A DNA stretch of 23,179 nt, taken from positions 1-23,179 of IMG/VR virus record IMGVR_UViG_3300008952_000316; one strand, written 5' to 3'. This document shows positions 6,692 through 22,561 of the stretch, in pieces. The notes beneath the pieces were generated by a model. That model ran no database searches. It had not been told where the DNA came from and saw only the letters and a program-made list of their open reading frames with translations. The position numbers were made by a program, and so were the translations under genes. The first letter of the stretch is position 1, and each line of letters starts with the position of its first letter. Source of the stretch: a virus.

Positions 6692-7327
6692 TTACCTAAG
6701 CGGTGGACCACTCACCCATTGAACCATAGATTCTCTTATCCCCTTAGTAACAGGAGTAACTTTATGCGACATATAAGAAGGAAAACATATTACAGTTCCC
6801 TTTCCCCTCGGGAAAACTTGTGGTGTCGAAGATTCATGCATCATAACTTCACCACCTTCATAATCATCTTCATCAGATAATTGAACTATCATAGAAACTT
6901 TTCTCATATTTGTACTAGGGCCACAATCTGCGTGCCAATCATAAAAATTTCCTGTTTCATCTTCAGAACCATAATATCTAGCAAATTGAATTAATTCCAT
7001 ACTTCCAAGTAAATCAAATTTCCACATATTATTATTGGCCTCTACTACCATATCTCCCATTTTTTCATAAATCCAAGTAGTTTCCTCTATAATATCTATC
7101 CAAGCAGTAGAAGTTCTTCTTATAGTATTATCAACACCTTGAGCAACATCTTGATATTCGGCAAGCGATGCTTCATTGAATTCTAAAGTATCAGCATATT
7201 TTCTTATTTTTTGAATTTCTATATCATTAAAACCGTCTTTAAAAAAATACCACCCACAAGGTTCTGTACTATGATAAAAAGGTTGAGATTGCCGACTTAA
7301 TAAAAAATCATTATATAACATATTCAT
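6692..7327 (-). CDS. 2-oxoglutarate/Fe(II) oxygenase, PKHD/prolyl-hydroxylase type
   Basis: The 211-aa protein carries a double-stranded beta-helix oxygenase core. The iron ligands are W-H-A-D (H132, D134) and H188 in F-P-S-Y-M-S-H-K-V-T-P-V-T, with R198 positioned to bind 2-oxoglutarate. E-G-G-E-V (157-161) is the usual strand before the catalytic His. These enzymes hydroxylate protein side chains (often Pro, Lys or Asp) or small molecules, releasing succinate and CO2. The target is unknown. It lies directly after the ribonucleotide reductase (10 nt) and before the SemiSWEET-like gene. AGGGGA precedes ATG 7327. All catalytic residues are present. Confidence 0.88.
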   Translation of the reverse strand: MNMLYNDFLLSRQSQPFYHSTEPCGWYFFKDGFNDIEIQKIRKYADTLEFNEASLAEYQDVAQGVDNTIRRTSTAWIDIIEETTWIYEKMGDMVVEANNNMWKFDLLGSMELIQFARYYGSEDETGNFYDWHADCGPSTNMRKVSMIVQLSDEDDYEGGEVMMHESSTPQVFPRGKGTVICFPSYMSHKVTPVTKGIRESMVQWVSGPPLR

Positions 7328-7337
7328 TTAACATCCC

Positions 7338-9332
7338 CTAAAATATTTCACACGAACTACCCGAACAAGCTAATTCTCCTTGCAGATCAGTGTTATCTTC
7401 AATTTCAATTATATTTTCAATATTTATAGATTTTACATATTTAGTCAATTTTTCATATTCATCCTTACCACAGTCCTCAAAAGGCGCTTGTACATAGGTT
7501 CCATTATCATATGGTAAAAAAGACAAACCATTAAAAGAATCTTGATTATCCCACACCCATGACCCCACAGATGTCCATTCATCACTTTTAACAGAAACAG
7601 TTGCAGACACATTATGGCTATTCATACCTTTATTATGTCCTGGAGTAATCCAATTATCTTTAAAATGTTTTATTCTTTCCAAGAATTTTGTTACATCTTC
7701 CTTTCGTGTAATAGCACCTTCTGGGGCTCTTACAGGAATAGTTATAACAGCTCCTGGACCAAATACTTCATCTTCAACCAATTCTGGGATTTCTTCTACC
7801 AAATATTTATAAATAGCTTCATTTTTCCCAACCCTAATTCGACGTTTATAGTAATCACTATGCCATGCATGAATTCCAGAAGAAGTGCCCAGAACCAAAC
7901 TACCTGTCCCCTCTGGTTTTATACAAGTAACACGTCTAGCAGGATTTATACCCAATAATCCAGCAACTCGTTTATTTTCCTCTACGGCACATTTTGAAGC
8001 TTCATAAAAACTATAATCATTATAATCGACTGAAGCAAGTCCAGTCAAAGAAACACCCAATAACGATTCCTTTTCTGTCATTTTTTTCCACTCAGGCCTT
8101 AAATAATGAAAATCCGTATAAGACGCTTGTAGAGTACCGATAAATGCAGCTGCTTTAGCACGTCTTTCCAAATCTTCTTGATTTTCCAACCCCGAAACAT
8201 TTATCGAAGTCAAATTACAAAACTGAAAAGGATTTAAAGCAATTTCACAACACGGATTAGAACCTAAATTAGTATCATTAGTAAAATATAATCCTGGTTC
8301 ACCACTACCACTTTCAACTAAAATATTCCATTTATCAGTAAACGTTTCTTTATCTATCATAGGTCTTGCAACCATAATAGAATTATTACTTCTAGAACGT
8401 TCAGGATAAAGATAATACCATTCTATTTTTCCTTCATCTTTAAGTTTATTATAATCTGTTTCAGGCAAATATACTTCAACCGTTTTACAATAGGTTTCAT
8501 CTCTCCAAACATTCACCCTAACATTATAAACTCCATTTTCTGCAGTCAAAACTTCTTCAATAACACCATCATAAGCAGATTTACATTTTAACATTTCTTT
8601 ATCATCAATACTAAATAATGAAATTAATGCACTTCTACGAATACCTCCAGCAAGTACTGCATCAGCAATTATACACTGAATATCATGGCATTCAAGAGGT
8701 GTTAATTTATCACCATCCTTTTTCCTATCCAACATAGACTGTATCATATTCAAACTTTTTTTCAATGGTTCTGGTCCAGGAGCTTTTCCGCCACTAATAA
8801 CCAACTGTGCACCCTTTTCCCTAACACCCCTATAATCAAATAGTGGTAAAGTTTTCCCATGGAAATATGCTTTCATCAACATTTTTACAGCATCCGCCCA
8901 ACCTTCTATAGAATCTTGTATTAGATACCGTCTTGATTTTAAAGGTTTTCTTATCTCAGGCAATTGGTCAACATGATGTCTCTGAACACTATAACCAACT
9001 CCTGCTCCTGACAATAATAAAAACATAGTCTCCGAAAATGTCAAGGTGTCTACAACAGGTAAATATGAACAATTAAACATTCTTGAAGGATTAACATCAA
9101 TTGCCATACCTGCAAATTGCATAGAACGCATTGATGGTATTACTTTCTTTTGATATACTAATTGATAAACATCTTCTATTTCATCCTTTAATCTAGGATA
9201 TTTATCAATGTGCATTTGTTTATTTCTGTCTACCGTTTCTTTAAAAGTTTCTCTTCTACTTTTCTCTGGCAAATACTTCGCATATTTCATATAATGAATT
9301 ACATCACTCATTAACTCTAGATTTGTTTCCAT
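7338..9332 (-). CDS. nrdJ: Adenosylcobalamin-dependent class II ribonucleotide reductase (monomeric type)
   Basis: The 664-aa enzyme reduces ribonucleotides to deoxyribonucleotides using a B12-generated thiyl radical. It has N-P-C-C-E-I with C361 and E363, then C372, plus C88 (M-F-N-C-S-Y). The spacings Cys-x-Glu and +11 to the next Cys match C408, E410 and C419 of the Lactobacillus triphosphate reductase. The C-terminus C-S-G-S-S-C (656-661) matches its reducing pair. F-D-Y-R-G-V-R-E-K-G-A and G-G-K-A-P-G-P are monomeric class II hallmarks. No small radical subunit (nrdB) lies nearby, as expected. About 45 extra residues (around 258-305) interrupt the loop before R-S-N-N-S. GGAG precedes ATG 9332. 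Confidence 0.9.
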   Translation of the reverse strand: METNLELMSDVIHYMKYAKYLPEKSRRETFKETVDRNKQMHIDKYPRLKDEIEDVYQLVYQKKVIPSMRSMQFAGMAIDVNPSRMFNCSYLPVVDTLTFSETMFLLLSGAGVGYSVQRHHVDQLPEIRKPLKSRRYLIQDSIEGWADAVKMLMKAYFHGKTLPLFDYRGVREKGAQLVISGGKAPGPEPLKKSLNMIQSMLDRKKDGDKLTPLECHDIQCIIADAVLAGGIRRSALISLFSIDDKEMLKCKSAYDGVIEEVLTAENGVYNVRVNVWRDETYCKTVEVYLPETDYNKLKDEGKIEWYYLYPERSRSNNSIMVARPMIDKETFTDKWNILVESGSGEPGLYFTNDTNLGSNPCCEIALNPFQFCNLTSINVSGLENQEDLERRAKAAAFIGTLQASYTDFHYLRPEWKKMTEKESLLGVSLTGLASVDYNDYSFYEASKCAVEENKRVAGLLGINPARRVTCIKPEGTGSLVLGTSSGIHAWHSDYYKRRIRVGKNEAIYKYLVEEIPELVEDEVFGPGAVITIPVRAPEGAITRKEDVTKFLERIKHFKDNWITPGHNKGMNSHNVSATVSVKSDEWTSVGSWVWDNQDSFNGLSFLPYDNGTYVQAPFEDCGKDEYEKLTKYVKSINIENIIEIEDNTDLQGELACSGSSCEIF

Positions 9333-12856: not shown

Positions 12857-13273
12857 CTATTTAGTTTTTTTCTTATTTAGAATTTTTCGGACTGTTTCAC
12901 GATACTGTTTAGTTCTACCATCAATTCTACCGGATTTAGTATGACGTCCAACCTTTTTTTCTTCTGCCTTTTCGTCCTTACCTTTCCAATTCTTATCAAC
13001 ATAATCAAAAAATTCCTTTTTCTTAGCTCCCTTTAAATCATCTGGTTCATTTACCCCAAATTTTTTCATGGCTTTCTTAAAGAATTTTTGGTATGCAGTA
13101 TCTTTTTCTTCTGTTTGATTTGGTGATTGATCACCCAAATTAGTTTTGACCATTTCAACTTCGTCTTCAGTCGCATTACCTTGAAGAACACTCTGAATAG
13201 CATTTACCAAAGAAGGATCAGATAAATCAAACCCGCCAATCAAATCTTCAGTTTTTTTATTTGTCTCAGACAT
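12857..13273 (-). CDS. 138-aa charged protein, probable head or core assembly
   Basis: The N-terminal half is acidic. The middle reads A-Y-Q-K-F-F-K-K-A-M-K-K-F-G-V, then K-K-K-E-F-F-D-Y-V-D-K-N-W-K-G, a motif that occurs at the end of several marine phage structural or scaffold-like proteins. The C-terminus is basic (K-S-G-R-I-D-G-R-T-K-Q-Y-R-E-T). GGGGAG lies 6 nt before ATG 13273, and the start overlaps the end of the Ntn-hydrolase-like gene by 8 nt. Placement next to the structural gene supports an assembly role; no enzyme motif is visible. Confidence 0.7.
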   Translation of the reverse strand: MSETNKKTEDLIGGFDLSDPSLVNAIQSVLQGNATEDEVEMVKTNLGDQSPNQTEEKDTAYQKFFKKAMKKFGVNEPDDLKGAKKKEFFDYVDKNWKGKDEKAEEKKVGRHTKSGRIDGRTKQYRETVRKILNKKKTK

Positions 13274-14144
13274 TAGATTCTCCCCTATTAAAATATTCCT
13301 TCATAGTAAATAACTTTTTAGAAGAAATTATTTCAAACCCCGTTTTATATTTTGGTTCTATTAGTTTATTATAATCAATATTCATTTTACACATAATTGG
13401 TCTATAGTGTAAAGTCAATTCTTTTGGATCCACCAACATTTGCCCAGTAGTTCTCATTTTTTCTTTACCTGTATCTAACCTGAGTGGATTCATTTGCGGA
13501 TCTTTGTTATCAGTATTAGAACAAACATCGAAAATATCTTTTGGTTCTTTAATTCTTTTAAGATTATCCTTAACCATTTTCAATCTGGTATCACTACTTA
13601 ATCTATCTTTTTTCTGTTTGGGATTATCTGTCTGATAACCACTCCAAGGTATTAATACCCCGTGATTAGTTCTTAAAACTGTATCACCAACCCCAATTTT
13701 CTTAACTTCACTATAATATTTTTTATTAGGACCATGATAATCTTCAAAAGCACCTTCCAATATATACATCGTCTTTGAATCAAAAACCAAAGTATTCCCA
13801 GGAATTTCATCAGCAACTAAAGTATCTAATGCCTTTTCAACAGTTTTTTCCAATAAAGCTTTCCTAATCCTTATACCATCTGGTGCATAATAATTTTCAT
13901 CCCTACCAGTAGCTTTATCTGCTTCGTCTTCATCTTTCTTAACCATAACAGCAGCAGAAAGTATAGAAACACCAAATTCATTTAATCCTTCACTATACTT
14001 AGTTTTTTCATCAAGTAGATAAAATCGTTCTATTCCACCCTTAAAACTACGTTTAAAATTAACAGTTGCCTGATAATTTCTGTCGCGTTGTTTGAATCCT
14101 ACCCACCCTACTTCGGGGAAATATTTTCCTAATACGATACACAC
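13266..14144 (-). CDS. Ntn-hydrolase-like amidase (choloylglycine hydrolase / C45 type)
   Basis: The start is GTG 14144 (GAGGA upstream), which places Cys at residue 2, free to become the N-terminal nucleophile once Met is removed. The following F-K-Q-R-D-R-N-Y (R20, D21, N23), N-E-F-G (55-58), G-N-T-L-V-F-D...Y-I-L-E (116-130) and R-T-N-H-G (158-162) appear in the order known from linear-amide Ntn hydrolases such as bile-salt hydrolase, penicillin V acylase and C45 acyltransferases. These cut or transfer acyl groups on non-peptide C-N bonds. Length (292 aa) fits. No signal peptide, so it acts in the cytoplasm or inside the virion. The substrate is unknown. Confidence 0.65.
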   Translation of the reverse strand: MCIVLGKYFPEVGWVGFKQRDRNYQATVNFKRSFKGGIERFYLLDEKTKYSEGLNEFGVSILSAAVMVKKDEDEADKATGRDENYYAPDGIRIRKALLEKTVEKALDTLVADEIPGNTLVFDSKTMYILEGAFEDYHGPNKKYYSEVKKIGVGDTVLRTNHGVLIPWSGYQTDNPKQKKDRLSSDTRLKMVKDNLKRIKEPKDIFDVCSNTDNKDPQMNPLRLDTGKEKMRTTGQMLVDPKELTLHYRPIMCKMNIDYNKLIEPKYKTGFEIISSKKLFTMKEYFNRGESNV

Positions 14145-14215: not shown

Positions 14216-14782
14216 TTATAATACACCCAATCCAACTCCAACATCAGAATACAATTGAGCTTTCTGACCATTATCTAAACTATTAGGTATTCCACTAAAA
14301 AAAAGTTCTACATTATTATCTACCACTGCTTGTCTCATCTTAGAAGCCGACATACCTTCAACACCCTCAGCATCAGGATCTCTTTCACCTGCACTAGATA
14401 CAATAATTTTTTCAAACTTGTAATATCCATGGGATGATGCTTTTCCATTATATTTATTCAATAATGCATCAAATGATTTTATTCTATCACTGCCTACTAT
14501 CATACACACCGAATCATAACCCATTTCATACAATTCCACAAGAATCTGTAAGGCATCTCTAGAATCACTAGATATAATATCAGATCTATATTCAGGAAAA
14601 ATCTTTTTCATCCAATACAATTTAGTCTTATATTTCAACGGATCTTTTTTGCCAGTAGTATGACTCAAATAAATGAAATAATCAGCATTATATTTATTTG
14701 CATATTTGAACCCAAAATCCAACAATTTACCATGACCAATAGTAGGTGGATTAAACCTACCGAAAGTAAATGTAGCTTTCAT
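14216..14782 (-). CDS. Nucleotidyltransferase (cytidylyltransferase / NMN adenylyltransferase-like)
   Basis: The 188-aa protein begins M-K-A-T-F-T-F-G-R-F-N-P-P-T-I-G-H, the first nucleotide-binding motif (T14-x-G-H17). It later has V-G-S-D-R (95-99) and G-M-S-A-S-K-M-R (142-149), equivalent to the ISSTxxR motif. These enzymes join a nucleoside triphosphate to a phosphorylated substrate (NMN, pantetheine, glycerol or choline phosphate), releasing pyrophosphate. The exact substrate is open. ATG 14782 is chosen because it has GGAG upstream, begins at the family motif and overlaps the stop of the 51-aa ORF as ATGA. Neighbours are a glycosyltransferase and a ligase-like gene. Confidence 0.85.
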   Translation of the reverse strand: MKATFTFGRFNPPTIGHGKLLDFGFKYANKYNADYFIYLSHTTGKKDPLKYKTKLYWMKKIFPEYRSDIISSDSRDALQILVELYEMGYDSVCMIVGSDRIKSFDALLNKYNGKASSHGYYKFEKIIVSSAGERDPDAEGVEGMSASKMRQAVVDNNVELFFSGIPNSLDNGQKAQLYSDVGVGLGVL

Positions 14783-14934
14783 TTGTTTTCTCCAAAATAT
14801 TTTTTCCAAAGACCACCGACAAACCCCACAACCCAGAACACATCATATAAAAACGACAAAAAACAACGAAACAGAAAACTTCCCACTGGTGATGTAAAAC
14901 AAATATATCCAATAGTCTGTGAAATTAATTTCAT
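14779..14934 (-). CDS. 51-aa membrane protein
   Basis: The frame from ATG 14934 lies 3 nt after the glycosyltransferase stop and ends in an ATGA overlap with the nucleotidyltransferase, so it exactly fills the gap. The product has two hydrophobic stretches (about 6-30 and 32-42) rich in Phe, Cys and Gly (VGSFLFRCFLSFLYDVFWVV) and a basic end (L-W-K-K-Y-F-G-E-N-K). Precise packing on both sides supports a real gene. It could anchor or accompany the neighbouring transferases; no family recognised. Confidence 0.65.
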   Translation of the reverse strand: MKLISQTIGYICFTSPVGSFLFRCFLSFLYDVFWVVGFVGGLWKKYFGENK

Positions 14935-14937
14935 TAT

Positions 14938-15714
14938 TTATCCCAATTTCAAATTTTTTCTTAGAATCGATGATGTAGTTTTTTTCATCCATCTCCTTGT
15001 TTCTTTCCCACAAACTACATCAATTATTGCACCCAAATCAATAGATTGAATTTCTTTACCCATTTTAAATAATCTTTTCTGAACAACTCTACTAGCCAAA
15101 CCAGCAGTAGGAATACATAAATCTACATCATCTATATTTTCGAGTACTTTTGGAAACCACTCATCCATTTTATAATAAGAATCATTATTAGGGACCTTAA
15201 CAAAATAATCTATTCTACCTAAAAATTGTTCCAAATAAGCCATTTCTTCTTTTGAGTCCCAACAATTAATTAACATTTTCTTTTTAGGTTTTATATTCTC
15301 ATCCATAAAATCAATTATTAATTCTGGTTCAAATGTAGTTAAATAAGGTATAAAAGAATGAGATTCATAAAATCCATTCTCTACACCTATGAGTTTTAAT
15401 GCTTTCTCTGTCCTATCATAATCAATCAAATCTAATCCCTCAGGTCTGAACCATCCCTCTTTTCCCCCAACCATACCATCTTCAATAGGATATCTATCAT
15501 ATATCATTGCTTTAATAAAATTTGGATGTTCAATTTTAAATGCTTCTTCTAGTTCTTCTGCTAATTCTGGTGAATATTTATGATACCCATCATTTTCACC
15601 TATCATAACATAAAAATCACCATCACCAAATCTAGTATAAAATAATCTTTTTTCTGCTTTTAATAATAAATTCAATTTATTTAATGTAGAACGTGTATCA
15701 TTTGTAGAAATCAT
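14938..15714 (-). CDS. GT-D-type glycosyltransferase (DUF1792-like)
   Basis: The 258-aa protein has R-F-G-D-G-D-F-Y (28-35), the signature of the GT-D glycosyltransferase fold, where the Asp residues hold the metal and sugar nucleotide. Y-H-K-Y-S-P-E-L-A-E-E-L follows, as in that family. The C-terminal half has alternating strands and helices ending D-L-G-A-I-I-D-V. It should transfer a sugar from an NDP-sugar in the cytoplasm. In phages such enzymes may act on modified DNA bases, or on virion or host surface glycans. Its place between the ligase-like and nucleotidyltransferase genes, about 2 kb from the TET/JBP-like oxygenase, leaves both open. Confidence 0.75.
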   Translation of the reverse strand: MISTNDTRSTLNKLNLLLKAEKRLFYTRFGDGDFYVMIGENDGYHKYSPELAEELEEAFKIEHPNFIKAMIYDRYPIEDGMVGGKEGWFRPEGLDLIDYDRTEKALKLIGVENGFYESHSFIPYLTTFEPELIIDFMDENIKPKKKMLINCWDSKEEMAYLEQFLGRIDYFVKVPNNDSYYKMDEWFPKVLENIDDVDLCIPTAGLASRVVQKRLFKMGKEIQSIDLGAIIDVVCGKETRRWMKKTTSSILRKNLKLG

Positions 15715-15717
15715 ATA

Positions 15718-16968
15718 TCATTTATCCCAATTTTTCTCAACATTAAAATTGTTGAAAGAAAATTCTAATCTATCAACTAACTTAACAGCACTCCCATCTT
15801 TATCTATAGCAACAAATCCTTCAGGATTTACTACCTTATACCCATTCTTAGTACGAATAAAAGTGCTTGTATCAGCTTTTGCCCCTTCATTAAGTTTGTC
15901 CACAATTAGATTTTTGGCTTCCACCAAAAACCCCTGAAAGGAAATAACTGCTTCTAAAGTTTTTCTTGTTGATACAATTGTATCCAAATACTGTTCTTTC
16001 TGATTCCGTTTAATTCTTTTAGACTCTTCACGTTTAACCTTTCCAATAACTTTATCTTCCCAAAATTCATCAAAATATTTTATGTATTGGGAAATATGAG
16101 AATTCGGGTTTTTAACCATTTTCCCACTTCTTATTTTGGAATTATAAAATGTTTTTAGTTTAGAACCAATAGCACCCGAAGGATAAGTTAATTCCTGATT
16201 CATGAATTCTTTATATTTTCCACTATCAATTTTATGAAACATTTTCCCAGCATTAGAAAGAAACTTAGTAACAACATCAGTTTCTGAAGAAGTCATAGTA
16301 ACAGACCCCGATTTATCAGGATACTCAGCACTTTGATACCAAACATTTGAGGTTTTTTTCAACCCACTGACATCTGCACCAAAAGAAGCATCCATATCAG
16401 GTAAACTAGAACCTTGATATGTAGTATGAAAAACAATCCCAATATTAGAAACCAATATTTCATCTGCGAGTTCACTTTTTTCGGGAACAGCATAAACAAT
16501 AGTATTCGGTTGAAATGTAATATACCTTTCACCATCTATTGTGGTATATTGAATATCTTCTTTGGTAAACATCATATCGCCTTGCAATACATTAGTAATT
16601 CCCAAAGAAGATAATTCCTTTAATGCAATACGAAGTTTTGATGCAAGTCCACCTGAAATCCCATAATATTCTATATCACCTTCGTGTTTAATCAACTTAG
16701 CAGTTTTAGAAAACACTGCTTTAGTCCCAACAAAAAATTGATCGTCTTCAGGATCAATGCCACAAAATATAGCAGGAGCTCCATCCCACTTAACAGTAAC
16801 ATCGACTTTATCCGGAGATCTGCCTGCTAACATATCCCTAAGTGACCTTAAGAAATTGATAGCAGACCTACCGCCCTCAAAACCTGCATTCAGAATTTCA
16901 TCTTCAAGATGTTCCAAATGCAGATTCTTACCAGAACCTTCAGACAAGAATTCTATAAATCCTCGCAC
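15718..16968 (-). CDS. 416-aa ligase/nucleotidyltransferase-like protein with capsid-targeting-like N-terminus
   Basis: The start is GTG 16968 (GGAG 7 nt upstream), 22 nt after a TATAAATA late box. The N-terminus M-R-G-F-I-E-F-L-S-E|G fits the T4 gp21 site exactly: (L/I)-x-Glu then Gly, with Glu at position 10 as in T4 internal proteins. Residues 56-66 read V-T-V-K-W-D-G-A-P-A-I. This resembles motif I (KxDG) of DNA/RNA ligases and capping enzymes, whose Lys (K60) takes the AMP. Q-G-D-M-M-F (129-134) and G-I-V-F-H (177-181) fit weakly to motifs III and IV, but the motif IV Glu is missing. I infer a divergent covalent nucleotidyltransferase that may be packaged. An inactive relative is possible. 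Confidence 0.7.
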   Translation of the reverse strand: MRGFIEFLSEGSGKNLHLEHLEDEILNAGFEGGRSAINFLRSLRDMLAGRSPDKVDVTVKWDGAPAIFCGIDPEDDQFFVGTKAVFSKTAKLIKHEGDIEYYGISGGLASKLRIALKELSSLGITNVLQGDMMFTKEDIQYTTIDGERYITFQPNTIVYAVPEKSELADEILVSNIGIVFHTTYQGSSLPDMDASFGADVSGLKKTSNVWYQSAEYPDKSGSVTMTSSETDVVTKFLSNAGKMFHKIDSGKYKEFMNQELTYPSGAIGSKLKTFYNSKIRSGKMVKNPNSHISQYIKYFDEFWEDKVIGKVKREESKRIKRNQKEQYLDTIVSTRKTLEAVISFQGFLVEAKNLIVDKLNEGAKADTSTFIRTKNGYKVVNPEGFVAIDKDGSAVKLVDRLEFSFNNFNVEKNWDK

Positions 16969-16989
16969 CTATAAACTCCATTTATTAGC

Positions 16990-16997
16990 TATTTATA
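16990..16997 (-). promoter_or_regulatory. TATAAATA late promoter for the ligase-like gene
   Basis: A TATAAATA octamer stands 22 nt before the GTG start, leaving a short leader with its own GGAG. It lies just past the 26-aa ORF. The best-placed late box in the window. Confidence 0.7.
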
Positions 16998-16998
16998 A

Positions 16999-17079
16999 TT
17001 ACCAAAGCTTCGCAACAAACAATAGCAAAAAAACGGAAATTAAAATAGCTGTAGATAAGCTAAAAACCCATTTAGTCAT
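16999..17079 (-). CDS. 26-aa single-span membrane peptide
   Basis: ATG 17079 has AAAGG about 8 nt upstream and follows the oxygenase stop by 3 nt. The product MTKWVFSLSTAILISVFLLL, ending in F-V-A-K-L-W, is almost entirely one membrane span with a Lys near each end. Position and ribosome site support it; homology cannot be judged at this length. Confidence 0.5.
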   Translation of the reverse strand: MTKWVFSLSTAILISVFLLLFVAKLW

Positions 17080-17082
17080 TAA

Positions 17083-17877
17083 TTACACCTTTCCCGCAAA
17101 AGCGATACAAATGTATCGAGTTCCACTAGTAACTGGTCTCGCACCATGTTTATGACCACAATATCCCGGATGAAAAGCCATCCACCCTTTAGGCAAATTA
17201 ACTGTTACACCCCATTTATCAAAATATGTTCCCCCACCTTCAAAATCGTCATTCAAAGTTGTGACAAAAGTAATAGCAGATTGATCATGATGAATATCTA
17301 AATGAGATTGATTTTGGACTTCATACTTAGCAATAAAAGTTTCAGACAAAAAATTACCTTTTTCTATATTCCATACATCACACGCTATTGGATAAGCATA
17401 TTGAGTAAGATAATCTTCATATGTCTCATCCCAATTTCTTCCATCAGGTCCACCCATTTCTATTAATGGAATATCCGTAGTAGGATAATTATCATGTCTA
17501 TCAGATGTCCAACCATCACACTGTTCCGCATCCGCTATTAAAGTATCACAGAAAAGATGTGTGAAGAAAGGCATCTTATAAATATTTATTCCAACGTTAT
17601 TAATCTTAATTTCTTCTACCACAAGATTAGCAGAAACATTATTATAAATTTCAGGAACCAAAAAATCCCTTTCGGCTTCTTTAGATTCCCTAACATTATT
17701 TTCTATTTGAATAGCATTTGCAACAGGCTTTTTCCTAGTCTGTGTTGCGGACTCTGATCGAATAGGATTATCTGGCAATGCAGTTTGTTGCACATCTAAT
17801 GTCGGGACTTCTTGTGGATTAACAGTTTTTGTAATATCTAAACTTTCCCTAATTATTTCAGGTTGAAATTCTACCAT
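17083..17877 (-). CDS. 2OG-Fe(II) oxygenase, prolyl/lysyl hydroxylase type, with disordered N-terminal extension
   Basis: Residues 1-90 are polar, Pro/Gln/Glu-rich and probably disordered. The oxygenase core follows, with H196-H-D198 as iron ligands, E-G-G-G-T-Y-F (213-219), then H244-G-A-R-P-V-T-S-G-T-R254, giving the distal His and the 2OG-binding Arg. This is the P4Hc (prolyl 4-hydroxylase/PLOD-like) pattern. The likely reaction is hydroxylation of a protein side chain, target unknown. The disordered extension could tether it to a partner. It follows the TET/JBP-like gene by 10 nt. AAGGAG precedes ATG 17877. Confidence 0.87.
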   Translation of the reverse strand: MVEFQPEIIRESLDITKTVNPQEVPTLDVQQTALPDNPIRSESATQTRKKPVANAIQIENNVRESKEAERDFLVPEIYNNVSANLVVEEIKINNVGINIYKMPFFTHLFCDTLIADAEQCDGWTSDRHDNYPTTDIPLIEMGGPDGRNWDETYEDYLTQYAYPIACDVWNIEKGNFLSETFIAKYEVQNQSHLDIHHDQSAITFVTTLNDDFEGGGTYFDKWGVTVNLPKGWMAFHPGYCGHKHGARPVTSGTRYICIAFAGKV

Positions 17878-17887
17878 TTTATACTCC

Positions 17888-18994
17888 TTAAAAAAATTGT
17901 TCTAAACTTCCTTGTTGAGATTCATACCAATTCACAAATTCTTTGGTATCCCACATTCCTTCTTTAACATATCCTTCATGTTGTACATATTCCCATTCAG
18001 CAGTATTCCACATTCCAGCTTCATACCCAAACACTTCAAAAAACTTCTCCCTCAATTTTTCATGTTCTATTGTACTACATCCAGACAACTTCTCTCTATA
18101 ATAACAAACCAAAGATAATCTTCCTTGTTTAGGATCATCAAATTCTATAGGAGTATTTCCATGAACTTCATGGACATCCATACCGACAAAATCTCTAGGC
18201 CTTGCATTTATAGCCACTCTATACTTTGGTATTACTGTATACCCCCCTTTATAATCACCATGTCCAACAATAATAAGAATTCCAAAACCACTAGGTAAAT
18301 CACCAGCATCTTTATGTCCTGCTGTTCTAAAATTTTTATTAATCGTTACAGTGGAAAATACGGTATTATCTATAATAAAACCATTATCCGTTTTTTCAAC
18401 CCATTTCTTTTGGTTTGCCCAACGATCAGAAATATGATATTCAAAACGACTACTTATTTGTTGTAGAAAAGGAATTCCAGACTTAAATTTATCAGAATTT
18501 CCTTTATTGAATGCTGTTTCTCTACAAAAAGGAAATCTAGGATATCTATCAAAATACCCAGCAATCCCAGCTTCCACTCTATTAGCATAATTTGTATCAG
18601 AAACAGATCCATCTTTTCTGATAACTTTTCTCATAAATTTCTTTGTGTTAGGATCTTCATCAGGGTCATAATAAAATTTCCTAATCGGATTTTTCTGTGT
18701 ACGACTATGTACCTGATGGTTTTCTTCTGAAACAGGACCTGCTGCTACTCCTCTATTATCTGTAACATTAACTGCAGCGTTAAACGCTTCATAAGCAATC
18801 ATCTGATCCTCATCAGAAAAAGCATTCTTTTCAAACACACATAATAATTCCCTTTCACCCTCAGCGTTTGGAGTTTTCCAAATTTTACAGGATTCGTTTA
18901 TAACAATATCATAATTGGAATCATCTAACCATTCCCCTAACAAATAGTCTTGATCCTCGCCTTGATACTGATCATCTAAATAAATATCTTTCAC
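17888..18994 (-). CDS. TET/JBP-like 2OG-Fe(II) oxygenase (candidate DNA-base oxidase)
   Basis: The start is GTG 18994, with AAGGAG 6 nt upstream and a promoter immediately before. The C-terminal domain reads T-V-T-I-N-K-N-F-R-T-A-G-H-K-D (H227, D229), D-L-P-S-G-F-G, G-G-Y-T-V-I-P, D-V-H-E-V-H-G-N (distal His H278) and R-L-S-L-V-C-Y-Y-R (R292). This N-x-N-F-R-T...HxD...S-G-F-G...H-G-N...R-x-S order is characteristic of TET/JBP enzymes, which oxidise the methyl of 5-methylcytosine or thymine in DNA. Residues 1-190 are a domain I cannot name. The tail repeats G-M-W-N/D-T-x-E-W/F. Free small-molecule substrates are an alternative. Confidence 0.8.
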   Translation of the reverse strand: MKDIYLDDQYQGEDQDYLLGEWLDDSNYDIVINESCKIWKTPNAEGERELLCVFEKNAFSDEDQMIAYEAFNAAVNVTDNRGVAAGPVSEENHQVHSRTQKNPIRKFYYDPDEDPNTKKFMRKVIRKDGSVSDTNYANRVEAGIAGYFDRYPRFPFCRETAFNKGNSDKFKSGIPFLQQISSRFEYHISDRWANQKKWVEKTDNGFIIDNTVFSTVTINKNFRTAGHKDAGDLPSGFGILIIVGHGDYKGGYTVIPKYRVAINARPRDFVGMDVHEVHGNTPIEFDDPKQGRLSLVCYYREKLSGCSTIEHEKLREKFFEVFGYEAGMWNTAEWEYVQHEGYVKEGMWDTKEFVNWYESQQGSLEQFF

Positions 18995-19016
18995 AATTTT
19001 CTCCTTTATACTACAT

Positions 19017-19045
19017 ATTATACCATATTTAGACATCTTTGGCAA
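19017..19045 (-). promoter_or_regulatory. Host sigma70-type promoter for the TET/JBP-like gene
   Basis: TTGCCA (19045-19040), 17-bp spacer, TATAAT (19022-19017) with TGG before it. AAGGAG and GTG 18994 follow at once, so the leader is under 20 nt. Confidence 0.85.
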
Positions 19046-19047
19046 GC

Positions 19048-19650
19048 TTAAAATGTCAAGAAAAATACTTGCATCAATCTCATTTTACCCTTGTCATGTT
19101 TATCACCAAAATAATTAGAAGTTCTATGAAAAAATTTTGCGTTAAATATAACCATTCTATTATATTTATACTTTACACTATCATATTTCACCCAAGCAGT
19201 ATCATAATTTTGTAAACAAGCTTCAGTGTTTTGAATATCAGCATATATATTATTACTATAATCTATCCCAAACTCCCCCTTCTTCCCACTTTTTTTATGA
19301 ATATAAAAATCTGTTCCACAATCATAGTCAGGATATTCCTTATTCAAATAAACTAAAGCAGAATAAACAACCCCATGTTGATCATCAGTATGTACCCAAG
19401 GATTATCTTCAACAGAATTAAGTTGAAAACCACCAAACCCTCTCTCCCCCCAATAATTCATTTTTTTATTAAACAATTTTTCAAATACATTTTTAACGGG
19501 AAGATTATGATTACCCCCAGTAGCCTCGGTTCGCATTCCAGGATATCCTTCAGTATCTTCAAAAACTTGACTTAAAGCATAATTTCTAACCATATCAGGA
19601 TCATCATAAAAATCGTCAATTATCAAATATAAAACATCATCCCAAATCAT
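19048..19650 (-). CDS. 2OG-Fe(II) oxygenase-like protein, DUF6445-type, second copy
   Basis: Using ATG 19650 (GAGG about 9 nt upstream) the protein has 200 residues; a TTG at 19665 would add five. The core has W-V-H-T-D, Y-S-A-L-V-Y-L-N, C-G-T-D-F-Y, then N-R-M-V-I-F...F-F-H-R-T-S-N-Y-F-G...R-L-M-Q-V-F-F. Numbered from 19650 the ligands are H87, D89 and H175, with R191 for 2-oxoglutarate. It is clearly related to the adjacent gene upstream (same motif order), so a tandem duplication is likely. Both begin with the I-x-D-D-F-Y-D pattern. The biochemical substrate of this family is not known to me. It ends just before the promoter at 19.03 kb. Confidence 0.8.
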   Translation of the reverse strand: MIWDDVLYLIIDDFYDDPDMVRNYALSQVFEDTEGYPGMRTEATGGNHNLPVKNVFEKLFNKKMNYWGERGFGGFQLNSVEDNPWVHTDDQHGVVYSALVYLNKEYPDYDCGTDFYIHKKSGKKGEFGIDYSNNIYADIQNTEACLQNYDTAWVKYDSVKYKYNRMVIFNAKFFHRTSNYFGDKHDKGKMRLMQVFFLTF

Positions 19651-20242
19651 AATCTTCGACCTCAAAAAAGAAACACTGGAACAACCTAGAATTTTTTAAC
19701 GTATCACCAAAATAATTATTTGCACAATGCCACATTCCAGCATCATATAAAACTAATCTATTAAACTTATATCCTATATAATCAATTATAGACCATTTAG
19801 TTTTATCTTGTCCATCGGCCATATACTTATCATCTTCCACATCATTACCACTACACACATAAGTATTAGATTCCAAATGTTTAAAAAATGTAGTACCGTA
19901 ATCCCCTGGAGGTGGATTTGGATGTAAAAATATCAAAGCTGCATGAGTACAACCTTTGGTTTGATCTTTATGTATCCAAGTCTGTTCTCCGTGTAAAACA
20001 TACTGGAATCCTCCATTATAACTATTATCCCACTTCAATATAGTCCTACCAAAATATGTTTCTAAAAATTGTTTAACGCCCAGATTATGATTAAGAGAAT
20101 TTTCTTTTGGTAACAAACTATTATCCCTACTCCTAAACCCAGGATAATTACCAACAATATCATACTCTAAACCTAAAGCATACTTTCTAACATCATTTGG
20201 TGTATCATAAAAATCATCAAAAACAGTTATCATATTTTTCAT
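19637..20242 (-). CDS. 2OG-Fe(II) oxygenase-like protein, DUF6445-type, first copy
   Basis: The 201-aa product starts M-I-T-V-F-D-D-F-Y-D-T-P-N-D-V-R-K-Y-A-L, a leader shared with its neighbour. Iron ligands are predicted at H91 and D93 (W-I-H-K-D) and H172 (M-W-H-C-A-N-N-Y-F-G), with R186 (S-R-L-F-Q-C-F-F-F). All are conserved between the two copies, so both look active. Between the strands it has a longer P-N-P-P-P-G-D-Y-G-T-T-F-F loop. The stop overlaps the next start by 14 nt. Function unknown beyond the oxygenase fold; hydroxylation of a protein, lipid or nucleobase is possible. Confidence 0.82.
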   Translation of the reverse strand: MKNMITVFDDFYDTPNDVRKYALGLEYDIVGNYPGFRSRDNSLLPKENSLNHNLGVKQFLETYFGRTILKWDNSYNGGFQYVLHGEQTWIHKDQTKGCTHAALIFLHPNPPPGDYGTTFFKHLESNTYVCSGNDVEDDKYMADGQDKTKWSIIDYIGYKFNRLVLYDAGMWHCANNYFGDTLKNSRLFQCFFFEVEDYDLG

Positions 20243-20571: not shown

Positions 20572-20869
20572 TAGAATACCTCCGAGGAATAGGTTTATTA
20601 TAATATGGTCGTTGTTTGATAATTGGTGCTGACGGAGCAGTAAAAATCATTGGATAATAATATATTCTCGGGGGTTTTAATCTCGGAGGTTTAAGTAGGC
20701 GGGGAACATATACCAATTCCACATTATGTCCATAAGAATAACCATATGGTCCAGCGGGATTATGCGGAATAGGATAAATTATGTCTATATTTGAACTAGG
20801 TTCAACAACATATTTACATCCACCAATAAACAAAAAACTCAAAAAAATTAAAATTGTAAATCGTCCCAT
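20399..20869 (-). CDS. Lipoprotein with Pro/Tyr-rich middle and Arg/Ser-rich tail
   Basis: The 156-aa protein starts M-G-R-F-T-I-L-I-F-L-S-F-L-F-I-G-G-C, a type II signal with lipobox I-G-G-C and Cys18 for lipid attachment. It should reach the periplasmic side of the inner or outer membrane. Residues 25-95 are Pro/Tyr-rich (N-P-A-G-P-Y-G-Y-S-Y-G, R-L-K-P-P-R-I-Y-Y-Y-P). Residues 96-156 are Arg/Ser-rich and end R-S-R-V-R-R-S-K. The tail is encoded where the next gene overlaps, so it may have arisen by overprinting. The start overlaps the gp41 stop by 22 nt. Superinfection exclusion, surface change or lysis are conceivable; none is shown. Confidence 0.72.
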   Translation of the reverse strand: MGRFTILIFLSFLFIGGCKYVVEPSSNIDIIYPIPHNPAGPYGYSYGHNVELVYVPRLLKPPRLKPPRIYYYPMIFTAPSAPIIKQRPYYNKPIPRRYSSVSRQRDASRSVRVRSRKSIESDSNRRHDLKSNTSSIGDKKRRENRTKIRSRVRRSK

Positions 20870-22236
20870 TTATTTTCTCCTTTTTTGTTATTATCAAAAA
20901 TGGGCATAACAAAATCCGAATTTTTAACATCTGAATCATGTAATTCTTGTGCATCATCTTCCACATCATATAATCGCATTTTACCCCTATCACACCCAAT
21001 CACAAATCTCCTATTTAATGTTGGATCATTATATCTATTTTTCAACTGTTTTACCATTATTTGATTAAGTTCTTCCAATTCTTCAGTAACTATTAGAGCG
21101 AACATAAAATCTGCAGTAGTAGGTAAACCAAAACTCTCAGAAGTATCAGTCAATTCCACATCACTATTGGAATATCCAGACCTAGTAGTTTGAGTTGCAC
21201 TCATAATAGGTAAATTTTTTTCTACAGCAAGACCTCGGAGTTCTTCTGCAATAGATTTTACCAAAGTATAAGAATTAGCATTTGCGCCTGCATTAATTCT
21301 ACTAGATGAACATATATTTAAATAATCAATAAATATGATATCCGGCATAAATGTTTTCTTTAGACGTAATTCATTCAATAAATGTCTGAAATGTCCTACA
21401 TGAGCTACCGCAGTTGGATATTCCTTAATGATTAAATTCCCAATTGTCTTTTTTCTTTCACTTTCCAACCTTTTTTGAAAGGAATTCTCGTCCAAAGCAA
21501 CAATATCATCTAAAGCAACATCTAATAAATTCGCATCTATCCTTTCTGCAATACGTTCTTCTGCCATCTCAAGAGTAATGTATAAAACATTTTTCCCATC
21601 CTTTAAACATCCCGCAGCTTGATGACACATAAACATAGACTTCCCAACACCTGTACCTGCAAGGCAAATATTTAAAGATTTTTTAGATAATCCGCCCTTC
21701 GTTATCATATTGAAATGATTTAAATCAAATTTGATTTTTTCCTCAACCCTATGATAAAACTCAAAACGTTCATCACCATCTTCAAAATAATCATGTCCCA
21801 CATTAGGATCAAAACTTACCGAAAGTGCATCGGTAAGTATTTTAGGAATTTCACCTTCACCCTTATCTTTATCTTTACCATCTACTATGGATATTGATTC
21901 CATCAAAGCATTGTAGACAGCTTTCTCTTGACAAAATTTTTCAGTAGATTCAATTAACCATTCTTCAGATTCCTCCACCTTATCATATATTTCTTTCAAA
22001 TATTCTATTATATTAGTGTATTGATTATCATTCAAAGTATCTTTCTGATTAAATTCAACTCTTAATATGTCAATAGAAGGAAGTTCATTATACTTGTCGA
22101 CAAAATCATTTATTTCTCCATATATCAAATTTTCAGAATTATCATGAAAATATTCAGGTTTTAAAAAAGGCAAAACCTTTCTAGCATAAATTTCATTGTG
22201 CACTAGACTCGATAAAATCTTTGTTTCCAACCGCAT
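20848..22236 (-). CDS. Replicative DNA helicase (T4 gp41 / DnaB type)
   Basis: The 462-aa protein has a DnaB-like N-terminal helical domain (residues 1-110, E-T-K-I-L-S-S-L-V-H...F-L-K-P-E-Y-F) and a RecA-like motor. Walker A is G-T-G-V-G-K-S at 194-200 and Walker B is D-I-I-F-I-D-Y-L near 300. S-A-T-Q-T-T-R (motif H3 sensor) lies downstream. It unwinds DNA at the fork, partnering the gp61-type primase encoded at 9.3-10.3 kb. ATG 22236 is preferred because GGAG lies 6 nt upstream and the sequence there matches the T4 gp41 beginning. An in-frame ATG at 22275 adds 13 residues. An internal promoter lies about 125 nt upstream. Confidence 0.94.
   Translation of the reverse strand: MRLETKILSSLVHNEIYARKVLPFLKPEYFHDNSENLIYGEINDFVDKYNELPSIDILRVEFNQKDTLNDNQYTNIIEYLKEIYDKVEESEEWLIESTEKFCQEKAVYNALMESISIVDGKDKDKGEGEIPKILTDALSVSFDPNVGHDYFEDGDERFEFYHRVEEKIKFDLNHFNMITKGGLSKKSLNICLAGTGVGKSMFMCHQAAGCLKDGKNVLYITLEMAEERIAERIDANLLDVALDDIVALDENSFQKRLESERKKTIGNLIIKEYPTAVAHVGHFRHLLNELRLKKTFMPDIIFIDYLNICSSSRINAGANANSYTLVKSIAEELRGLAVEKNLPIMSATQTTRSGYSNSDVELTDTSESFGLPTTADFMFALIVTEELEELNQIMVKQLKNRYNDPTLNRRFVIGCDRGKMRLYDVEDDAQELHDSDVKNSDFVMPIFDNNKKGENKWDDLQF
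21814..21838. repeat. Perfect 9-bp hairpin within the helicase gene
   Basis: ACTTACCGA and TCGGTAAGT pair perfectly around a 7-nt loop in the linker region of the helicase. No U-run follows on either strand. It may be chance or a local mRNA structure. Confidence 0.7.
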
Positions 22237-22561
22237 CCAATTCTCCAGTTTCCATTTTACTTTTAATATCATCATCCATTATAGACAATAAAATTTCAAA
22301 AAGTAATTTTTCAAATTTATGACGACTACTCTCGTCTATAGATGCCCGATAAGGCATTTTAAGTATAACATAATTAAACGAAACTGGCAAGTTTTTTATT
22401 TCATCAACTTGCAATTCTTCTTCAGAAGGGACATGAACCTTTTCATAACGATATACACATCCCCTATACCTTCCCCTGAGAATTTTAATATCCCACCATT
22501 TACCATCATCCGCATGAGATAACTTATAATGTTTATTTTCCCTCTTCTTGCGATATTTCAT
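22193..22561 (-). CDS. 122-aa conserved-position protein between uvsX and gp41
   Basis: The start at ATG 22561 is supported by GAGG 6 nt upstream; a TTG at 22579 is possible. The N-terminus is basic (M-K-Y-R-K-K-R-E-N-K-H-Y-K-L). G-K-W-W-D-I-K-I-L-R-G-R-Y-R-G-C-V-Y-R-Y-E then suggests a small beta domain. The C-terminal half is helical (S-S-R-H-K-F-E-K-L-L-F-E-I-L-L-S-I). It overlaps uvsX by 29 nt and the helicase by 44 nt, so the three are coupled. A recombination or replication accessory role is inferred from position only. Confidence 0.75.
   Translation of the reverse strand: MKYRKKRENKHYKLSHADDGKWWDIKILRGRYRGCVYRYEKVHVPSEEELQVDEIKNLPVSFNYVILKMPYRASIDESSRHKFEKLLFEILLSIMDDDIKSKMETGELDAVGNKDFIESSAQ
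22362..22390 (-). promoter_or_regulatory. Internal promoter upstream of the helicase gene
   Basis: TTGCCA (22390-22385), 17-bp spacer, TATACT (22367-22362) preceded by TGT. It lies inside the 122-aa gene and shares the exact design of the promoters at 2.3, 10.4 and 19.0 kb. It would raise gp41 expression independently of uvsX. Confidence 0.65.

Follow-up and report, generated by a model that had tools for sequence, protein, structure and literature searches.

The 23,179-base stretch analysed here (the window) is the whole of IMG/VR record IMGVR_UViG_3300008952_000316, a fragment from the genome of a marine T4-like phage, and at 17888-18994 on the minus strand it encodes a 368-residue TET/JBP-type dioxygenase dependent on Fe(II) and 2-oxoglutarate (2OG). 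This protein belongs, as a divergent new member, to an already known type of phage enzyme for DNA hypermodification, and we favour, with slightly better than even confidence, a reading in which it adds a hydroxyl to the 5-methyl group of a DNA pyrimidine, most likely thymine, as cargo carried between the genes for a gp41-type helicase and a DUF6267 protein, with a nearby nucleotidyltransferase, and probably a GT-D glycosyltransferase, doing other work. We infer DNA as the substrate, thymine as the parent base and protection as the purpose: with Fe(II) and 2OG, the enzyme would act on a base already in phage DNA, most likely converting thymine to 5-hydroxymethyluracil (hmU), and the resulting hydroxyl would serve as the site for further groups that block host nucleases.

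The family, fold and catalytic residues of the enzyme, and the gene neighbourhoods of its relatives, are direct results of computation. The protein scores 76 bits against Pfam family Tet_JBP PF12851 (E = 2.5e-21; cut-off 34.9) and matches PHROG 24024 with an E value of 5e-84. Its AlphaFold model (predicted template-modelling score [pTM] 0.82, with 28 sequences in the alignment) retrieves exclusively TET2, NgTET1, CMD1 and CcTet at ranks 1-26 of a Foldseek search of the PDB, and VIA-align comparison gives Z scores from 21.7 (TET2) down to 17.9 across these four, versus 14.3 or less for ALKBH3/AlkB types. The iron and 2OG ligands of the HxD...H...R motif (H227, D229, H278 and R292) are intact, and nearly all relatives keep each of them (161-162 of 162). 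Profile match, fold and catalytic residues thus all identify a genuine TET/JBP dioxygenase, as the original prediction had it, including the GTG start codon at 18994, which is preceded by an AAAGGAG Shine-Dalgarno sequence. No J-DNA-binding domain was recognised on it, only TET-type matches having appeared, although no search aimed at this domain was made. Scans of viral contigs with the TET, GT-D and 2OG proteins of the window as single queries gave no matches, and profile plus motif scans were needed. Homologues of the TET are present in 13 phage records, the isolates being HTVC112P, DLP_6, P12024L, Cr30, S-CBWM1, C48C1 and Melnitz, where the annotation often, and wrongly, calls them SNF2 DNA repair proteins.

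The genes that surround these relatives point to DNA modification. Two profile scans of IMG/VR yielded 154 loci, being the best 80 of each scan, with many more reported (hundreds in the clade); the loci were chosen by conserved peptides, such that the fractions below describe that sample, and gene calling, clustering and cluster identification were followed by reduction to a non-redundant set of 51 loci that have 4 kb or more of downstream sequence. An amino-acid:DNA transferase (ADDT, PF18724) is encoded in 24 of the 51 and a P-loop nucleotide kinase 3 (PF18751, hydroxymethyluracil-kinase-like) in 26, and the two are found together in 22 (Fisher 2e-8). A TET-associated glycosyltransferase (TAGT, PF20691) is present in ten, and no locus combines it with the kinase (p = 3e-4). 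In 37 of the 51 loci the TET has one or more of these enzymes beside it, a strong and non-random association with precedent, which indicates from gene content that the clade of the window TET is a DNA-hypermodification clade. ParB-like genes precede most of the short TET forms, and a glutamine amidotransferase gene comes after many.

Thymidine hypermodification pathways have reportedly been worked out by Lee et al. in 2018 and 2022. In Rhodococcus phage Tonitrus, a set of ParB, tet-like, aGPT-PPlase2 and 5-hmU-kinase genes has been described as thymidine hypermodification (PMC11955845), and the relatives of the window TET similarly sit with ParB-like, ADDT and P-loop kinase genes, whereas the window has a TET but none of these three genes in its 23 kb. 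Arthrobacter phage Kharcho also has consecutive ParB, TET-like and P-loop kinase genes. A separate ParB-TET-FkbM methyltransferase module is seen in pelagiphage-type contigs, at 6973-9195 of the HTVC112P locus (L002) and in related IMG/VR loci, with FkbM in 29 loci; this is possibly a third downstream branch, in which the oxidised base or a group on it would be methylated.

In the window, transcription runs from UvsX through gp41, two small genes, two DUF6445 genes, the TET, a 2OG oxygenase gene, DUF6267 and GT-D to the nucleotidyltransferase. All of these genes are on the minus strand, and those named in the original prediction are open frames at the coordinates that it gave. The TET and three other oxygenases fill a cargo slot bounded by the gp41/DnaB-like replicative helicase (20848-22275) on one side and by DUF6267 (15718-16968), which is paired with the nucleotidyltransferase, on the other. 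Two syntenic contigs (L135 and L159) have the order UvsX-gp41-TET-GATase-amidoligase/GNAT-ADDT-kinase-DUF6267, with gp41 broken up by the gene caller in L159, and in TET-free relatives the gp41-DUF6267 interval holds other, variable genes. In related T4-like contigs this slot has, behind the TET, an amidotransferase, an acetyltransferase or amidoligase, an ADDT and a P-loop kinase. The slot of the window has no recognised partners, and the second-step chemistry would therefore be either elsewhere in the missing part of the genome, outside the 23-kb fragment, or unrecognised among the slot oxygenases, namely the protein at 17083-17877 and the DUF6445 pair.

These other oxygenases and the missing partner gene could be taken to mean that the substrate of the TET-like enzyme is RNA, a free nucleotide or a protein and that the enzyme is unrelated to DNA hypermodification. 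The DUF6445-DUF6445-TET-2OG block is indeed dense: the DUF6445 genes (19637-20242 and 19048-19665) overlap by 29 bp, about 53 bp separate the second from the start codon of the TET, and the oxygenase gene at 17083-17877 lies 10 bp downstream of the TET. However, the fold is specific to DNA-acting TETs by the Z scores given above (18-22 as against the AlkB types), most relatives have DNA-modification neighbourhoods, and we consider a non-DNA substrate very improbable. That three further 2OG oxygenases surround the TET, as originally proposed, is borne out: the 17083-17877 protein matches PHROG 61 (E = 6e-21) but scores below the Pfam gathering threshold, both tandem proteins belong to DUF6445/PHROG 1644, and HxD...H...R is readable in all three. 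The PHROG 1644 name 'minor coat protein' looks wrong for the DUF6445 pair, since they carry this motif like 2OG oxygenases.

The parent base had been left open in the original prediction, and it now leans to thymine without being settled. A C5-cytosine methyltransferase (PF00145) was found in none of 37 TET-relative records (20-197 kb) and in one of seven isolates (Melnitz), and a thymidylate synthase (TS)-type hydroxymethylase (PF00303) over the cut-off in none of the 37 and in one of seven isolates (Cr30). Positive-control genomes matched in both searches, and many of the 37 records are fragments, such that absence is not proof for each single one. A whole-genome search for a DNA methyltransferase or a thymidylate-type hydroxymethylase had been proposed; it was run on the fragment for the C5-methyltransferase, and as first reported none is visible in the 23,179 bases, the genome being incomplete, while the relatives served for both enzymes. 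Thymine is favoured because the relatives lack both enzymes yet carry hmU-type downstream genes, and unless the host supplies the methyl group, it would be the sole 5-methylpyrimidine available. The kinase and the amino-acid transferase are hmU-pathway enzymes, as established for M6/ViI-type phages. This role is also backed by a published account (PMC9599517), in which the hmU of the classic M6/ViI pathways comes from a TS-type enzyme, the very enzyme that the relatives of the window TET are without. As the substrate we put thymine ahead of cytosine, at roughly twice the probability.

Several observations weigh in the other direction. The pocket of the TET has D232, Y298 and R300 as candidate base contacts and no His as in TET2 and NgTET1. 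D232 aligns with the contact to N4 of 5-methylcytosine (5mC) in TET2, NgTET1 and CMD1 (D350 in CMD1), and R300 aligns with CMD1 R418, a correspondence that we infer by position after a shared stacking residue; CMD1 D350 and R418 hold the N4 and O2 of 5mC (PMC7854593), and the solved TET homologues matched by the model all act on 5mC (activities from the literature). Melnitz, a T4-like Methylophilales phage of the Kyanoviridae whose backbone is close to that of the window, being the closest isolate for both DUF6267 (56%) and the nucleotidyltransferase (52%), has an HhaI-type C5-methyltransferase gene directly before its own TET. Furthermore, the window TET forms a long branch by itself, whose position is uncertain, no ADDT, P-loop kinase or TAGT is found in its 23 kb, where the fragment may be incomplete, and its locus is among nine of the 51 that are without ADDT, kinase, TAGT and an FkbM partner. 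We also found no biochemistry for this TET clade in the literature consulted.

These pocket residues and the Melnitz gene order would fit a cytosine route, in which a C5-methyltransferase encoded outside the fragment, or that of the host, would make 5mC, the TET would oxidise it to 5-hydroxymethylcytosine, and a later enzyme would decorate the product. We regard this as possible but rather doubtful, since the methyltransferase is so rare among the relatives and the kinase and ADDT found beside the relatives are familiar from the chemistry of hmU. The Melnitz TET has moreover diverged further than any other in the set (26% identity to that of the window) and is located elsewhere in its genome. 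Position 300 is Arg in 160 of 161 sequences and Asp in Melnitz alone, the sole isolate with a C5-methyltransferase; that Asp at this position goes with the methyltransferase is suggestive, from a single case. In the Melnitz genome (MZ577097; locus L008, 4010-6194 and beyond) the C5-methyltransferase, the TET, a 427-residue protein and a P-loop kinase-3 protein are grouped, a gene order suggesting that the kinase there works on hydroxymethylcytosine and not on hmU. Phage TET enzymes that work with a C5-methyltransferase and glycosyltransferases were reportedly described by Burke et al. in 2021 and Pyle et al. in 2024. The window has in common with those systems the TET/JBP fold, the catalytic motif and a glycosyltransferase gene nearby, but no C5-methyltransferase is present in the window or the 37 relatives, and the glycosyltransferase is a GT-D enzyme that is unlinked to TET elsewhere.

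The GT-D gene (14938-15714) was central to the original prediction, which in full proposed that the TET makes a hydroxymethyl base, which the GT-D enzyme then glycosylates with a sugar activated by the nucleotidyltransferase. That the protein is a true GT-D fold glycosyltransferase is clear: its model matches DUF1792/GT-D structures with Z scores of 19.2-19.6 (19.6 for DUF1792), it contains the RFGDGD motif common to the enzymes of PDB entries 4PHR, 4PFX and 5V4A, and most of the length of PF08759 is matched by its relatives, the window protein itself scoring 27.8, barely above the cut-off of 27. A profile search with PF08759 over 45 records matched nowhere, the window included, and was discarded. 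The gene is on the same strand as the TET and within 2.2 kb of it, and a TET followed by a TAGT is present in the ten relatives noted above, including the pair in P12024L. However, the GT-D gene follows DUF6267, at a distance of 3 bp, rather than the TET, and GT-D relatives are found in none of 164 TET-relative loci. Unlike the enzymes of the three PDB entries, the window protein is a phage form, and the four closest viral relatives (39-42% identity for the three that were aligned) are located in nucleotide-sugar cassettes, among genes for GDP-mannose dehydratase, sugar aminotransferase and PfkB kinase, in records that contain no TET in a search with positive controls. In two such phage cassettes (L167, 65-1744, and L186, 3826-5505) the GT-D domain lies behind a SPASM (radical-SAM type) domain, an unusual fusion.

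We therefore consider the full proposal improbable; what stands of the proposed hypermodification locus is a TET whose clade keeps company with modification genes, and what lacks support is the membership of the GT-D enzyme and the nucleotidyltransferase in the pathway. The GT-D enzyme is probably not part of a DNA-modification step and more likely works on glycans or on the decoration of the virion, and its action as a DNA glycosyltransferase is possible but unsupported. We know of no GT-D fold that acts on DNA. A base-J-like sugar-thymine in a T4-like phage, with the TET/JBP enzyme hydroxylating thymine in DNA and the GT-D enzyme glycosylating it, is a very improbable reading; the window resembles the kinetoplastid JBP system in the proposed hydroxylation of thymine by a TET/JBP oxygenase, but the glucosylating partner of base J is without support.

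The nucleotidyltransferase (14216-14782; ATG at 14782 with GGAG, the frame being open also from an upstream TTG at 14809) matches PF01467 (E = 1.2e-4) and PHROG 3041 'cytidyltransferase' (E = 1e-56), and had been proposed to activate a precursor. We reject this role for a DNA precursor, and the gene is unlikely to be part of the pathway, because it is widespread in marine T4-like phages independently of TET: it is matched in 526 phage records and DUF6267 in 452, mostly from cyanophages. Among 80 DUF6267 loci in IMG/VR the nucleotidyltransferase is nearby in 55, none has a TET within 9 kb and none a GT-D gene in the same DNA. DUF6267 and the nucleotidyltransferase are thus widespread marine T4-like backbone genes, found mostly without TET. 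The DUF6267 protein has, close to the N terminus, the stretch K-W-D-G-A-P, which recalls the KxDG motif of ligase/capping nucleotidyltransferases; as a candidate relative of KxDG-type ligases it found no support among PDB sequences.

If the clade does hydroxylate thymine in DNA, phages would have a second, post-replicative route to hmU in addition to the known one through dUMP hydroxymethylase, and the cultured isolates Cr30, DLP6 and HTVC112P would allow a direct test for JBP-type activity outside kinetoplastids. There would also be a rule of two exclusive downstream branches, one of kinase plus amino-acid transfer and the other of TAGT glycosylation, with the window TET as a divergent lineage having a third downstream branch.

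The remainder of the window includes a UvsX/RecA end and genes for a primase and a ribonucleotide reductase. A fifth 2OG oxygenase (YbiX/PKHD-like) is encoded at 6692-7327, directly after the ribonucleotide reductase gene, and at 13266-14144 there is a 292-residue protein with an M-C start, which matches nothing at the Pfam gathering threshold or in PHROG and which, with its N-terminal Cys, could be an Ntn-type hydrolase.

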